A DNA stretch of 38,958 nt from Nitrospirota bacterium (GCA_011620345.1 WOZJ01000037.1:1-38958); one strand, 5' to 3'. Counted from the first letter of the stretch, positions 23,981 to 28,431 are shown. Notes: generated by a model not told the origin, from the sequence alone. Numbers and translations are program-made.

Positions 23981-25978
23981 ATGGAGCCCATAGAGAGCGT
24001 AACCAGGGAGGTGTTCCTCCGGTTTTCCTTAGCCGAAAGAATCGTTTTCTACGTGCTAAGCCTGCTGACGATCAGCGTCTTTGTGTACGGGTTCTATGCC
24101 CAAGCGAGACGATGGATGCAAGGCAGGGATGCGCTGTTTGCATGGAACCGCATTCCCGAAAGACTCTTGAGGGTTTTTAGTCAAGTCCTTGGACAGGCAA
24201 AGCTGCTCAGAGAATCCTACAGGGGGTTTGCGCACCTTCTGGTCTTTTGGGGGTTCGTGGTGTTGTTCATCGGGACGGTGATCCTGACCATCGATGAGGA
24301 CACACCGCTTCGCTTCTTCTACGGGGACTTCTATCTTGCATACTCTTGGACCTTAGATCTTTTCGGCCTTTTCCTGCTTGGCGGGCTTGTGCTGTTCGGG
24401 GTTCGGCGTTACGGACTCCACCCTAAGGGATTAAGCTACAAATGGGACGATCACTTCTTGTTCTGGATGCTCCTGCTTTTGGGCATTACAGGGTTTTCAA
24501 CGGAGATCCTAAGGATCGCAGGAGGTGGCGTGGCGTTTCAGGCCTACCCCGAGTTCGAGCGTGTGTCCTTCGTCGGGTTTAGTGCGGCCAAGATGCTTCG
24601 AGGGGCAGACCCCGCCCTTCTCCACGGCCTTCATAAGGCCTCATGGTGGGTTCACGGCCTCCTTTCGCTCGGGTTCATCGCAGTCCTTCCTTACACAAAG
24701 GCCTTTCATTTCTTCAGCTCGCTCTTGAACGTCTTTCTTGCCCCGTTTGAAACCAAACAATACGGGATGCCGAGCTATATCGACTTGGAGAACGCCGAGT
24801 CTATCGGATACAACACCCTAAGCGATTTTACTAAACAAGAGCTCTTAAGCCTGGACGCCTGTACGCGGTGCGGCCGCTGCCAAGAGGTCTGCCCTGCCTA
24901 CGCTACCCAAAAGCCGCTTTCCCCTAAGGGCGTTGTTCTCGATCTAAAGGGCGCGATGCTTGAAGGTGATGGCGAGGATAAGCCCTTGGCGGGCGGTGTC
25001 ATTACGGATGACGTGCTTTGGTCGTGCACGACTTGTAAGGCCTGCGTCGAGGCATGCCCTGTAGAAATCAATCAGATGGGCCTTATCCTTGAGCTTAGAC
25101 GCTCGCTCGTGTTCGAGATGCAAACCCCATCTACGCTCGGTCAAAGCCTCAAGAGAACCACCAACAGCGCCAACCCCTGGGGGCTTCCGAACGAGGATCG
25201 CCTAGCTTGGGCCAAGGGGCTTTCCGTCCCCCTTGCCGCGGAAACGGAGGGGGGCTTCGAATGGCTATACTGGGTCGGTTGCAGTGCTTCTTTCGACCCG
25301 AGGAACCAAAAGATTGCACGCTCGATGGTCAAGCTTTTGGAAGCATCGGGCGTAAACTACGCCGTCTTGGGGCCGGAAGAAAAATGTACGGCGGAATGGG
25401 CAAGAAGGGCCGGAGAAGAGGGCCTATTCCAAATGAACACGCTAGAGAACATCGAGACGTTCAAGCGCTACAATGTCTCGAAGATCTTGACCCATTGTCC
25501 TCACTGTTTAAACACGCTTAAGAATGACTATCCGCAGTTCGGGTTTCAAGCCCAGGTGGTTCACCACAGCACGCTCTTAAGGGACCTGCTAAAGCAAGGC
25601 CGGCTCAAGCTTGGGAAGAAAACTCCTGAATCGCTCGTTTTTCACGACTCGTGCTACCTTGGCAGGTACAACGGAGTGTACGACGCTCCGCGCGAGTTGC
25701 TTCACACCGTGGCCAAGTCGCCCATAAGGGAAATGGAGAGGCGTAGGGAAAAGTCGTTCTGCTGCGGCGGCGGAGGCGGGCTTTCATGGATGGAGTTCGA
25801 CATCGGCAAAAAGATTAATCACGAGCGGATCGAAGAGGCGGCTGCTACGGGAGGAAAGACTCTTGCCGCAGCATGCCCGTTTTGTGTGTTCATGTTCGAC
25901 GACGCCATCAAGGTCAAGAACCTCGAGGAGGAGATAAAGGTCAAGGACCTATCCGAGATCCTCGTCGAATGCCTCTAG
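23981..25978 (+). CDS. Membrane FeS oxidoreductase, EtfBA:quinone oxidoreductase type (DUF224/EMO)
   Basis: A 665-residue enzyme expected to take electrons from reduced EtfBA and reduce (methyl)menaquinone. The N-terminal ~265 residues are NarI-like with about five or six membrane helices (FYVLSLLTISVFVYGFYA, LLVFWGFVVLFIGTVIL, WMLLLLGITGFSTEIL) and histidines suited to haem b. Two [4Fe-4S] motifs follow near residues 294 and 349: CTRCGRCQEVCPAY and CTTCKACVEACPVEI. The HdrB-like CCG region contains CPHCLNTLKNDYP, FHDSCYLGRYNGVYDAPREL, KSFCCGGGGG and ACPFCVFMFDDA. The architecture matches enzymes described for syntrophic and beta-oxidising bacteria. Its 3' end overlaps convergent acuB by 30 bases. 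Confidence 0.9.
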   Translation: MEPIESVTREVFLRFSLAERIVFYVLSLLTISVFVYGFYAQARRWMQGRDALFAWNRIPERLLRVFSQVLGQAKLLRESYRGFAHLLVFWGFVVLFIGTVILTIDEDTPLRFFYGDFYLAYSWTLDLFGLFLLGGLVLFGVRRYGLHPKGLSYKWDDHFLFWMLLLLGITGFSTEILRIAGGGVAFQAYPEFERVSFVGFSAAKMLRGADPALLHGLHKASWWVHGLLSLGFIAVLPYTKAFHFFSSLLNVFLAPFETKQYGMPSYIDLENAESIGYNTLSDFTKQELLSLDACTRCGRCQEVCPAYATQKPLSPKGVVLDLKGAMLEGDGEDKPLAGGVITDDVLWSCTTCKACVEACPVEINQMGLILELRRSLVFEMQTPSTLGQSLKRTTNSANPWGLPNEDRLAWAKGLSVPLAAETEGGFEWLYWVGCSASFDPRNQKIARSMVKLLEASGVNYAVLGPEEKCTAEWARRAGEEGLFQMNTLENIETFKRYNVSKILTHCPHCLNTLKNDYPQFGFQAQVVHHSTLLRDLLKQGRLKLGKKTPESLVFHDSCYLGRYNGVYDAPRELLHTVAKSPIREMERRREKSFCCGGGGGLSWMEFDIGKKINHERIEEAAATGGKTLAAACPFCVFMFDDAIKVKNLEEEIKVKDLSEILVECL

Positions 25979-26638
25979 TTCGAGCCAATACTTGCGAATA
26001 TCCAAAATTTCGAAGCCTTGGGCCTCCAGTGCTTCCCGAACAGGCAGGGGGTTGATTGTGGCAAGACGAAGGAGAAGGACAAGCTGAGGAGATTCCTTTT
26101 TAACCATTTCGAACAGTAGGCTAACGACCTCGACGCCCAAGCGCCTTGCCGCTTCAAGAACGCGAATCGTATCAGAGGTTTTATCCGCAACGAGTACTTC
26201 GATCCTAGAGGTATTTTTGTTGACCCCAAGAACGCATTCAAACGCCCTTAAGAGGTCTGTCTTGGTAAGGATCCCTAAAGGCCGGGCATCTTCGTCGACG
26301 ACGGGCAGCCCGTTGAACCTGTGGGTGTTGAAGATACTCAGCGCATCCTCAAGCGTATCGGTTGGGTAGAGCGTGACAGGGTCTTTTGTCATAAACGAAA
26401 CGACGGGCGCGGCCTCCATCAAATCCTTAAGCGTTTTGCCCTGAAAGCTAGACATGTAGACCAAGGAAGTCTTGGCATCGCGTAGGTCCCTATCGGAAAA
26501 GATGCCTACTAGCTTACCCGCCTCCTGAACCATGATTTGGTTTACTTGATGGGTTTTCATTAGCTCTTCGGCCTTCAGCAAGGCGTCTTGCGTGTTGATA
26601 CATACGGGGGTAGAAGTCATCCAGTTGAAAACAAACAT
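25949..26638 (-). CDS. acuB: AcuB-like CBS-pair protein with C-terminal ACT-like region
   Basis: A 229-residue cytoplasmic protein. Two CBS motifs occupy residues 1-135 (NWMTSTPVCINTQDALLKAE, GKLVGIFSDRDLRD, FMTKDPVTLYPTDTLEDALS, PLGILTKTDLLRAFE); such pairs bind adenine nucleotides. Residues about 145-220 look like an ACT-type domain (RIEVLVADKTSDTIRVLEAA, LRLATINPLPVREALEAQGF). This layout and the neighbouring AcuC fit AcuB of the Bacillus acuABC operon, whose biochemical role is unclear. GAAGAGGAGC lies six bases before the ATG. It is the last gene of the minus-strand cluster, 48 bases after acuC. Confidence 0.82.
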   Translation of the reverse strand: MFVFNWMTSTPVCINTQDALLKAEELMKTHQVNQIMVQEAGKLVGIFSDRDLRDAKTSLVYMSSFQGKTLKDLMEAAPVVSFMTKDPVTLYPTDTLEDALSIFNTHRFNGLPVVDEDARPLGILTKTDLLRAFECVLGVNKNTSRIEVLVADKTSDTIRVLEAARRLGVEVVSLLFEMVKKESPQLVLLLRLATINPLPVREALEAQGFEILDIRKYWLELEAFDEDLG

Positions 26639-26686
26639 TGCTCGCTCCTCTTCTCGTCTTGCATCTTCTCTGCATTTTGTTGTTTG

Positions 26687-27646
26687 CTAAAGAGCATCCA
26701 CAAGCCCTTCGACGTAGGCCATGCAAAGGTTTCCGAGTTCTGGAAGGAAATAACCGCCCTCGAGTACGGAAAGCACTCTGCCCTTGGAGAATGCCCTGGC
26801 GTATACCCCTATCCGCCTGCCAAAATGCTCATAGGCTTTTTCGGTGAAGTTCAGATGAGCCAAGGGGTCGTGCTCGTAGGCATCGAACCCTGCGCTTACG
26901 AGGACGAAATCCGCTTTGAAAACCTCCGTTATCTGCTCGAGGGCATAGTCGAACGCCGGCAGCGCTCGGTCATCGCCCGTAGATGGGGGCATGGGGACGT
27001 TGAGCGTAAAACCCTTTCCGGTTCCGATGCCAACCTCACTCCGCCTCCCTGTCCCTGGAAACAGGAAGCTCGGATGTTCGTGGATGCTGAAGTAGAAGAC
27101 GCTCGGGTCTTCCTCGAAAATATGCTGGGTGCCATTCCCGTGGTGGACGTCAAAGTCGACAACGAGAACCTTCTCTATACCGTAGCGGCTTTTGAGGTAT
27201 CTTGCTGCGATCGCGATGTTGTTGAAGTAGCAAAACCCCATTGCCTTGGTCCGCTCGGCATGGTGTCCTGGGGGGCGGATTGCACAAAACCCGCTATCAA
27301 TCTCTTCGGCCATGACTGCTTCAATGTGCTTTAAGATCCCTCCGACGGCTTGAGAAGAGGCTTCGAAGCTTCTTTCCGAAATGCAGTTGTCGTAAGAATG
27401 AAAGTAGCTCAGCCCACTTTGGCAGGCGCTCCGGAATTCCTCGATGTATTCCTTGGAGTGTACGAGTTGGATTGCGTCCATGTCTGCCGAGTCAGCGTGA
27501 AACCGTTTAAGCATCGGGCCGAACCGGTGGGAATCAAGACCGGCTTGAATCGCTCGAATCCTTTGAGCGCACTCAGGGTGCCCTTCCTCGGTTTCATGGG
27601 CCTCATAGATTGGATCGATCAAAAATCCAAACCGCTTTGGATCCAA
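26687..27646 (-). CDS. acuC: AcuC-type histone-deacetylase-family protein lysine deacetylase
   Basis: A 319-residue zinc deacetylase of the class I HDAC/AcuC superfamily. All catalytic parts are present: PPGHHA with the His pair at 128-129, zinc ligands Asp166 and His168 in VDFDVHHGNGTQ, Asp255 in SAGFDAYEHDPL, and the transition-state Tyr299 in VLEGGYF. HPECAQRI near residue 23 is the usual N-terminal signature. In Bacillus, AcuC deacetylates and reactivates acetyl-CoA synthetase; acetoin utilisation itself is not implied here, and polyamine or other substrates are possible. The TTG start at 27646 is supported by AAGGAGAT five bases upstream. It begins 14 bases after the upstream gene ends. 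Confidence 0.9.
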   Translation of the reverse strand: MDPKRFGFLIDPIYEAHETEEGHPECAQRIRAIQAGLDSHRFGPMLKRFHADSADMDAIQLVHSKEYIEEFRSACQSGLSYFHSYDNCISERSFEASSQAVGGILKHIEAVMAEEIDSGFCAIRPPGHHAERTKAMGFCYFNNIAIAARYLKSRYGIEKVLVVDFDVHHGNGTQHIFEEDPSVFYFSIHEHPSFLFPGTGRRSEVGIGTGKGFTLNVPMPPSTGDDRALPAFDYALEQITEVFKADFVLVSAGFDAYEHDPLAHLNFTEKAYEHFGRRIGVYARAFSKGRVLSVLEGGYFLPELGNLCMAYVEGLVDAL

Positions 27647-27660
27647 CGCGATCTCCTTAA

Positions 27661-28431
27661 TTAAGGGGTAAATGTGCAGATGTGAAAATCTTTCCCCACG
27701 ACCTTGACCATTTTGACATCCCGAAAGGGTTCTCCAAGAATGCCGTCGTAGATAGCCCAGCTACGGCCTACGGGTGTTGCTTCCATTCCTTTACGACGAA
27801 AGGGGGTGGATCCGTCAAGCTGCTCATAAAGGTCTCCCCCCGCATGGAATCGTGCGTTGATCTCTTCCATCCACGCCTTTCGTGTAACGTATCCAAACCC
27901 GTGACGTTCGTAATGGATGGCGTTGTGGTAGCCCAGAGGATAGGTAAAGATCATTTGGTAGCTTAGTTGTTTTGCAAATGTCTCCAGATGCAGCTTGAAC
28001 ACCTTGAAAAGTCCTAACCCTCTTCGAATTTGGAAAGGGGCAAGCCCGGCCTCCATAGCCTTAATCTCTTCTTTAATGTTGCGCCTTACGGTTCCAAAAA
28101 TTGTTTTTTTACCTAACTCATCAATGTCAAGAAAAAAACGTTCGCTATCCGGGTCGTTGATCATGATGAAGGAAAGTTCCAGTTGGTGGGTTGGGGTATG
28201 CTCAAGGTCCAACTCAAGAATACAGTCCTTATCGCTTAATCTTCTCTTTACCCGGATTGAAACCCAGTAATGAGATTCGGGGTAGTAGAAATGGACAGCC
28301 CTCTCTCCATGCTCGTTGAGTAATGTTTTTTTAGAAATATTATATCTTTCAAATATTTTGTCGGGAATAAGGAGCTTCAGGAGATCTTCACGTTCTTCGA
28401 CCTCAAGACGAGAGAGCTCTAAGATAGACAC
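27661..28431 (-). CDS. Uncharacterised protein with GNAT-like C-terminal half, first gene of the acu-like cluster
   Basis: I do not recognise a named family. The protein has 256 residues, no signal peptide and no membrane segment. The N-terminal ~120 residues are charged and beta-rich (HYWVSIRVKRRLSDKDCILE). Residues about 125-185 resemble acetyl-CoA-binding motifs of GNAT acetyltransferases: an R-R-G-L-G turn (QIRRGLGLFKVFKLHLETFA), a strand (YQMIFTYPLG) and the terminal motif NAIHYERHGFGY, which parallels the frequent A-x-x-x-Y-E-x-x-G-F. A distinctive tail follows (LDGSTPFRRKGMEATPVGRS). The GTG start at 28431 follows AAAGGAAG. The gene sits where acuA, a GNAT acetyltransferase, lies in acuABC, 14 bases before acuC. 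The GNAT relationship is an inference. Confidence 0.7.
   Translation of the reverse strand: MSILELSRLEVEEREDLLKLLIPDKIFERYNISKKTLLNEHGERAVHFYYPESHYWVSIRVKRRLSDKDCILELDLEHTPTHQLELSFIMINDPDSERFFLDIDELGKKTIFGTVRRNIKEEIKAMEAGLAPFQIRRGLGLFKVFKLHLETFAKQLSYQMIFTYPLGYHNAIHYERHGFGYVTRKAWMEEINARFHAGGDLYEQLDGSTPFRRKGMEATPVGRSWAIYDGILGEPFRDVKMVKVVGKDFHICTFTP

Follow-up and report, generated by a model that had tools for sequence, protein, structure and literature searches.

A GNAT-like protein family encoded beside deacetylases and acyl-CoA-forming enzymes as a candidate group of lysine acyltransferases

The stretch of DNA analysed here, called the window throughout, is a single contig of 38,958 nucleotides (WOZJ01000037.1:1-38958) from a Nitrospirota bacterium (GCA_011620345.1), whose genome of 1.8 Mb is 97% complete. 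The window carries a three-gene operon in which a protein termed X is followed by a Zn-dependent deacetylase and by a homologue of AcuB (Table 1). We consider it fairly probable that X represents an undescribed family of GNAT-like protein acyltransferases, whose target is a lysine on acyl-CoA-forming enzymes and which are often paired with deacetylases. X is read as a writer of acetyl marks because its predicted shape is like that of acetyltransferases and because its relatives repeatedly adjoin deacetylases or acyl-CoA-making enzymes; in the window, it probably adds marks that the deacetylase removes. The case for a lysine acetyltransferase is strong but circumstantial. It draws on the gene layout, on AlphaFold2 models whose neighbours in the PDB are GNAT proteins, on the distribution of the family, on recurrent adjacency and on the homology to AcuB.

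Gene neighbourhoods are the strongest evidence for the role of X. About 60 X loci were searched for deacetylases, acyl-CoA synthetases, Pta-N-like proteins and CBS proteins. X precedes a deacetylase in the window and in a sister species, both with the AcuB homologue, and also in two loci of another phylum-level group, within about 15 bp (L020, L021). The deacetylase comes first in L063, L066, L074, L079 and L081, and the two genes are divergent and about 450-520 bp apart in L095. In the order to which genome G509 belongs, the deacetylase is directly upstream of X in 40 of the 50 loci examined, mostly at a distance of 5 bp (a scripted count with a 300-bp limit gave 39/50, and L139, at 358 bp, makes 40), and a TPR gene usually lies downstream of X. 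Five genomes from two further families (G447, G562, G537, G482 and G630) have a deacetylase 5-10 kb from X, and L072 has a class II-like deacetylase and CBS pair about 5 kb away. On a tree of 69 members, immediate linkage to a deacetylase needs five changes, at least three of which are forced by the starred branches. Given about 2-5 deacetylase genes per genome, a rough Poisson estimate that treats the families as independent puts at about 1e-4 to 1e-7 the probability that three or four out of 25-30 families show the adjacency by chance. An earlier reading of the window, made from its sequence alone (the original prediction), had proposed a survey of homologues as a check, and relatives of X indeed recurrently adjoin deacetylases across lineages, in differing gene order.

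AMP-forming synthetases are the enzymes best known for control by lysine acetylation. A long-chain acyl-CoA synthetase gene precedes X by 21-46 bp in L069, L072, L073, L075, L083, L085, L093 and L111, and by 445 bp in L071. X lies 55-270 bp behind an acetyl-CoA synthetase gene (ACAS_N, AMP-binding and AMP-binding_C domains) in L076, L077, L078, L080, L086 and L110; the enzyme encoded in L076 carries the sequence PKTRSGKIMRR close to its C-terminus. Two loci (L102, L109) place X behind a gene for a CoA-binding/succinyl-CoA-ligase-like subunit that resembles those of ADP-forming acetyl-CoA synthetases, and ten place it behind a Pta-N-like gene (AAA_26 plus DRTGG). In the tree, the groups linked to acetyl-CoA synthetase and to long-chain synthetase each fall on one side of a branch. 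Furthermore, the host genome encodes 13 clear AMP-forming synthetases, several of which have the typical GK motif at the end and one of which has PKTRSGKILRR, and substrates are therefore available.

Other arrangements recur around X. A conserved TPR gene stands 3-50 bp after the deacetylase-X pair in L040, in L130-L134 and in most loci of the G509 order. One genome (L078 and L044) has a Pat-type synthetase-GNAT open reading frame on the opposite strand beside an acs-X pair, which makes two candidate writers per acs. One bacterial family has a second X paralogue between alpha/beta hydrolase and beta-ketoacyl synthase genes (L062, L064, L067, L068 and L070), and in the same genomes the other X paralogue lies behind a Pta-N-like gene. 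In the G040 group (L004, L006, L007 and L026), the gene immediately downstream of X, which shares its strand, is serine hydroxymethyltransferase-like, and L006 and L026 have a corrinoid-type protein gene upstream of X. Apparent X fusions in L073 and L075 (open frames of 654 and 1266 residues) were rejected because the synthetase is a separate match 21 bp upstream and the long frame stays open by chance in high-GC DNA; the 1067-residue frame of L105 was interpreted in the same way.

The partner proteins in the window are more readily recognised. The deacetylase carries the motifs RPPGHHA, DFDVHHGN, SAGFDAYEHDP and GGY, and thus has the catalytic set of Zn-dependent deacetylases (HH, DxH, D, GGY and RPP). 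Its closest relatives in the PDB are HDAC6 and other class II enzymes, and HDAC10-type polyamine deacetylases are also among them. AcuC, the name given to this protein in the original prediction, is a class I enzyme (PMC8556138). By these relatives the window deacetylase is class II and HDAC6-like, not an orthologue of AcuC, and that label had to be dropped. The X-linked deacetylases of L021 and of the G509 order are class I-like; within class I, AcuC belongs to sub-cluster 2c. The description of the CBS protein as AcuB-like was correct, since its three best PDB matches are AcuB itself (9qs7, 9s4v and 9s4w), aligned over residues 76-211, a stretch that covers the second CBS domain and the ACT part at the C-terminus.

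In Bacillus, AcuA places an acetyl group on the lysine of the RSGKIMR sequence in AcsA and AcuC removes it (PMC11255334, PMC11532494), and AcuB binds adenine nucleotides and, with AMP, inhibits AcuC (PMC13121692). For the window we infer acetyl-CoA binding and lysine acetyl transfer by X, an acyl-CoA synthetase as its substrate, and roles for the deacetylase and the AcuB homologue in the same system. Specifically, plentiful acetyl-CoA would lead X to acetylate a lysine of an acyl-CoA-forming enzyme and so switch the enzyme off, and the class II Zn-dependent deacetylase, as the proposed eraser, would reverse this mark. The AcuB homologue would serve as a sensor of adenine nucleotides that restrains the deacetylase at high AMP, by analogy with Bacillus, and so couples reversal to energy charge.

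Structure prediction places X near known acetyltransferases. An AlphaFold2 model of X built from the family alignment had a predicted local distance difference test score (pLDDT) of 94.8 and a predicted template modelling score of 0.90, and the model of a second member, the acetyl-CoA synthetase-linked protein of L076, had a pLDDT of 94.3. When the X model was compared with the PDB using Foldseek, nearly all of the top 50 matches were acetyltransferases, including GCN5, nourseothricin acetyltransferase, ArgA, SpeG, NatD and p300/CBP. The 50 best matches of the L076 model were likewise almost all acetyltransferases, headed by GCN5 from human and Tetrahymena (probability 0.98-0.99). The order of elements in X, alpha1-alpha2-beta2-beta3-beta4-[insert]-alpha3-beta5-alpha4, is that of the GNAT plan (PMC8556138). 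A fold search had been suggested with the original prediction, and a non-GNAT outcome would have counted against it; GNAT acetyltransferases dominate the matches of both models. The models lean towards a diverged GNAT fold for X, with a signal that is consistent and modest.

Some of these matches also fit a different substrate. X could be an N-acyltransferase of GNAT fold whose substrate is a small molecule (an amine, polyamine, amino acid or aryl acid), with the deacetylase removing that acyl group. SpeG, ArgA and nourseothricin acetyltransferase, the presence of polyamine deacetylases among the relatives of the window deacetylase, and the X clades that adjoin beta-ketoacyl synthase and alpha/beta hydrolase genes would all be consistent with such an activity. 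However, it leaves unexplained why X is found repeatedly behind acyl-CoA synthetases of the AMP- and ADP-forming kinds, the enzymes that lysine acetyltransferases classically target, and why the window operon includes an AcuB homologue. We therefore consider a small-molecule substrate unlikely.

X is not recognised by sequence comparison. The original prediction described it as an unrecognised 256-residue protein. The Pfam and NCBIfam libraries give no match above threshold, and the 59 family members likewise lack a significant match in either library; the NCBIfam search of these members returned nothing. PDB searches with the X sequence or an X profile gave only chance matches, and with the profile no GNAT chain was matched at E-values up to 10; a structure of AcuA has been reported (PMC11255334). 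Residues invariant among family members are P23, N118, E122, G129, P132, G138, Y168, E175, G178, F195, F211, R223 and W225, and the C-terminus has an extra conserved segment that is specific to the family (LDGSxPFR...GRSWAIHDGIL). In GNATs, the loop before helix alpha3 is the place where the pyrophosphate of CoA binds, and the motif A P-loop, R/Q-x-x-G-x-G/A, is often, not always, conserved.

Several observations weigh against a GNAT-like writer. The fold signal is modest because the best Foldseek E-values are 0.003-0.006, with none reaching 0.001, template modelling scores do not exceed 0.5, and superposition errors are large. The best Pfam result across the 59 members was Acetyltransf_7 in 1/59, with an E-value of 0.16, and there was no sequence-level GNAT match. 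An hhalign comparison of X with a GNAT profile built from three or four domains was not significant, a null that is not decisive because the profile was too thin. In addition, R/Q-x-x-G-x-G/A is present in 0/59 members, position 140 being Arg in 38/59 and Gly in 15/59. The original prediction had pointed to two GNAT-like motifs, and both stand where it placed them (RRGLG is residues 136-140); the second is strongly conserved, but the first does not hold as a P-loop. The GNAT assignment therefore rests on the fold, and the motif is set aside. The broader claim that X is a diverged partner writing the mark that AcuC removes keeps its support from the GNAT-like fold and from deacetylase adjacency, and loses the P-loop argument and the identity of AcuC.

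The missing P-loop (59/59) and the large family-specific insertion are compatible with a GNAT-like fold that has no catalytic function, in which case X might be a regulatory subunit that senses acyl-CoA and binds to the synthetase or deacetylase encoded next to it. A non-catalytic role would also account for the linkages observed. In contrast, the invariant residues E122, Y168, E175, R223 and W225 are more typical of an active site, and GNATs vary in their catalytic residues, some having no catalytic glutamate (PMC8556138). We regard a non-catalytic X as distinctly unlikely.

Gene content adds further points on the opposing side. The window operon has no acyl-CoA synthetase gene, and many X loci have neither a deacetylase nor an acyl-CoA synthetase nearby. 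A deacetylase is encoded in 47/47 genomes with X and also in 235/250 others of one big phylum; genome-level co-occurrence was dropped as evidence, being uninformative because 282/297 genomes carry a deacetylase. Moreover, the host genome encodes a competing writer (G000:C58, locus L127), a Pat/PatZ-type protein in which an NDP-forming acyl-CoA synthetase is joined to a C-terminal GNAT domain. The proposal that acetyl-CoA synthetase is the substrate class thus gains from homologues directly behind acetyl-CoA synthetase genes and loses from the absence of such a gene in the window operon and from the Pat-type protein. This canonical fusion could be the writer for the window deacetylase, with X unrelated in role and its adjacency incidental. 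We consider this very improbable, since adjacency to a deacetylase recurs in several lineages, in differing gene order and with two deacetylase classes.

As a lysine acetyltransferase, X would most resemble systems already described. The acu operon has been described in Firmicutes (PMC13121692). Like Bacillus subtilis acuABC, the window has a three-gene operon for a GNAT-like protein, an AcuB homologue and a Zn-dependent deacetylase, and relatives of X adjoin acetyl-CoA synthetase, the substrate of AcuA and AcuC. Unlike acuABC, its order is X-deacetylase-AcuB, its deacetylase is class II-like where AcuC belongs to class I, no acsA gene adjoins the operon, and X is not recognisably AcuA by PDB profile search. 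With the type IV single-domain acetyltransferases (AcuA, RpPat, MsPat and RimI), X shares a stand-alone GNAT-like form and proposed acyl-CoA synthetase substrates, but it has no Pfam GNAT match or canonical P-loop, and has an insertion of about 43 residues after beta4 and the extra C-terminal segment. The type I/II Pat/PatZ proteins, NDP-forming synthetase-GNAT fusions, regulate AMP-forming acyl-CoA synthetases, the target class proposed for X; one is encoded in the same genome, and in L102 and L109 an NDP-forming synthetase subunit encoded on its own adjoins X. In contrast to Pat, X is a stand-alone protein, and no similarity in sequence to the GNAT domain of Pat was detectable with the thin profile.

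A single-sequence search of genome contigs with X found the sister species alone, and the family surfaced only by profile, after alignment of diverged members. Profile searches found it in 11/386 genomes sampled across the domain, in 47/297 sampled genomes of the big phylum, and in 115/141 genomes of the G509 order; it is also present in small phylum-level groups around G000, G040, G075 and G089. Members are 31-51% identical to X, and the sister-species protein 97%. No X was found in plasmid and phage collections, and no description of the family was found in the literature. A 290-residue protein (L024:5973-6845, minus strand), which has no Pfam match, resembles the X profile only across the P-loop/motif-B region (E-value 1e-4) and may represent a distant sister family.

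We see an even balance for and against a wider proposition: that X is a near-core gene of one large order, occurs in at least five phylum-level groups, has repeatedly entered independent pairings with two deacetylase classes, has separate clades dedicated to neighbouring acyl-CoA-forming enzymes, and forms a modular write/erase system for acyl-CoA metabolism outside acuABC and Pat. The reversible acetylation of lysines in acyl-CoA synthetases has been studied well in a few model bacteria, and we know of no writers in most other lineages. If our interpretation is right, X would be a candidate writer in many lineages, with its eraser or probable substrate encoded next door, and the pairing is therefore directly testable with two or three purified proteins. 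The 59-row alignment itself defines a widespread protein family left unnamed by Pfam and NCBIfam.

Table 1. Positions of the operon genes and of features within X, counted along the window
Feature	Position	Strand	Description
X	27661..28431	-	256 residues, GTG start; GNAT-like, proposed lysine acetyltransferase; first gene of the operon
Zn-dependent deacetylase (Hist_deacetyl)	26687..27646	-	319 residues, TTG start; class II/HDAC6-like; Pfam E-value 1e-93
AcuB homologue	25949..26638	-	229 residues; Bateman (two CBS) domain and C-terminal ACT-like region
QIRRGLGL, X residues 134-141	28009..28032	-	Loop before helix alpha3; G138 invariant; departs from canonical R/Q-x-x-G-x-G/A
YHNAIHYERHGF, X residues 168-179	27895..27930	-	Motif-B-like helix alpha4; Y168, E175 and G178 invariant in 59 members
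Insertion, X residues 93-135 (about 43 residues)	28027..28155	-	Between strand beta4 and the P-loop region, relative to the GNAT topology of PMC8556138; conserved N118, E122, G129 and P132

The three open reading frames of the operon run in the same direction and are tightly packed, with gaps of 14 bp between X and the deacetylase gene and 48 bp between the deacetylase and CBS genes. The sister species (nearest named record, Nitrospirae bacterium UBA2233) has the genes in the same order with the same spacing, and its three proteins are 90-97% identical to those of the window. The reading frames, the short gaps and this conservation support the tight three-gene operon originally proposed. The CBS gene, which is the last of the operon, overlaps the EMO gene convergently.

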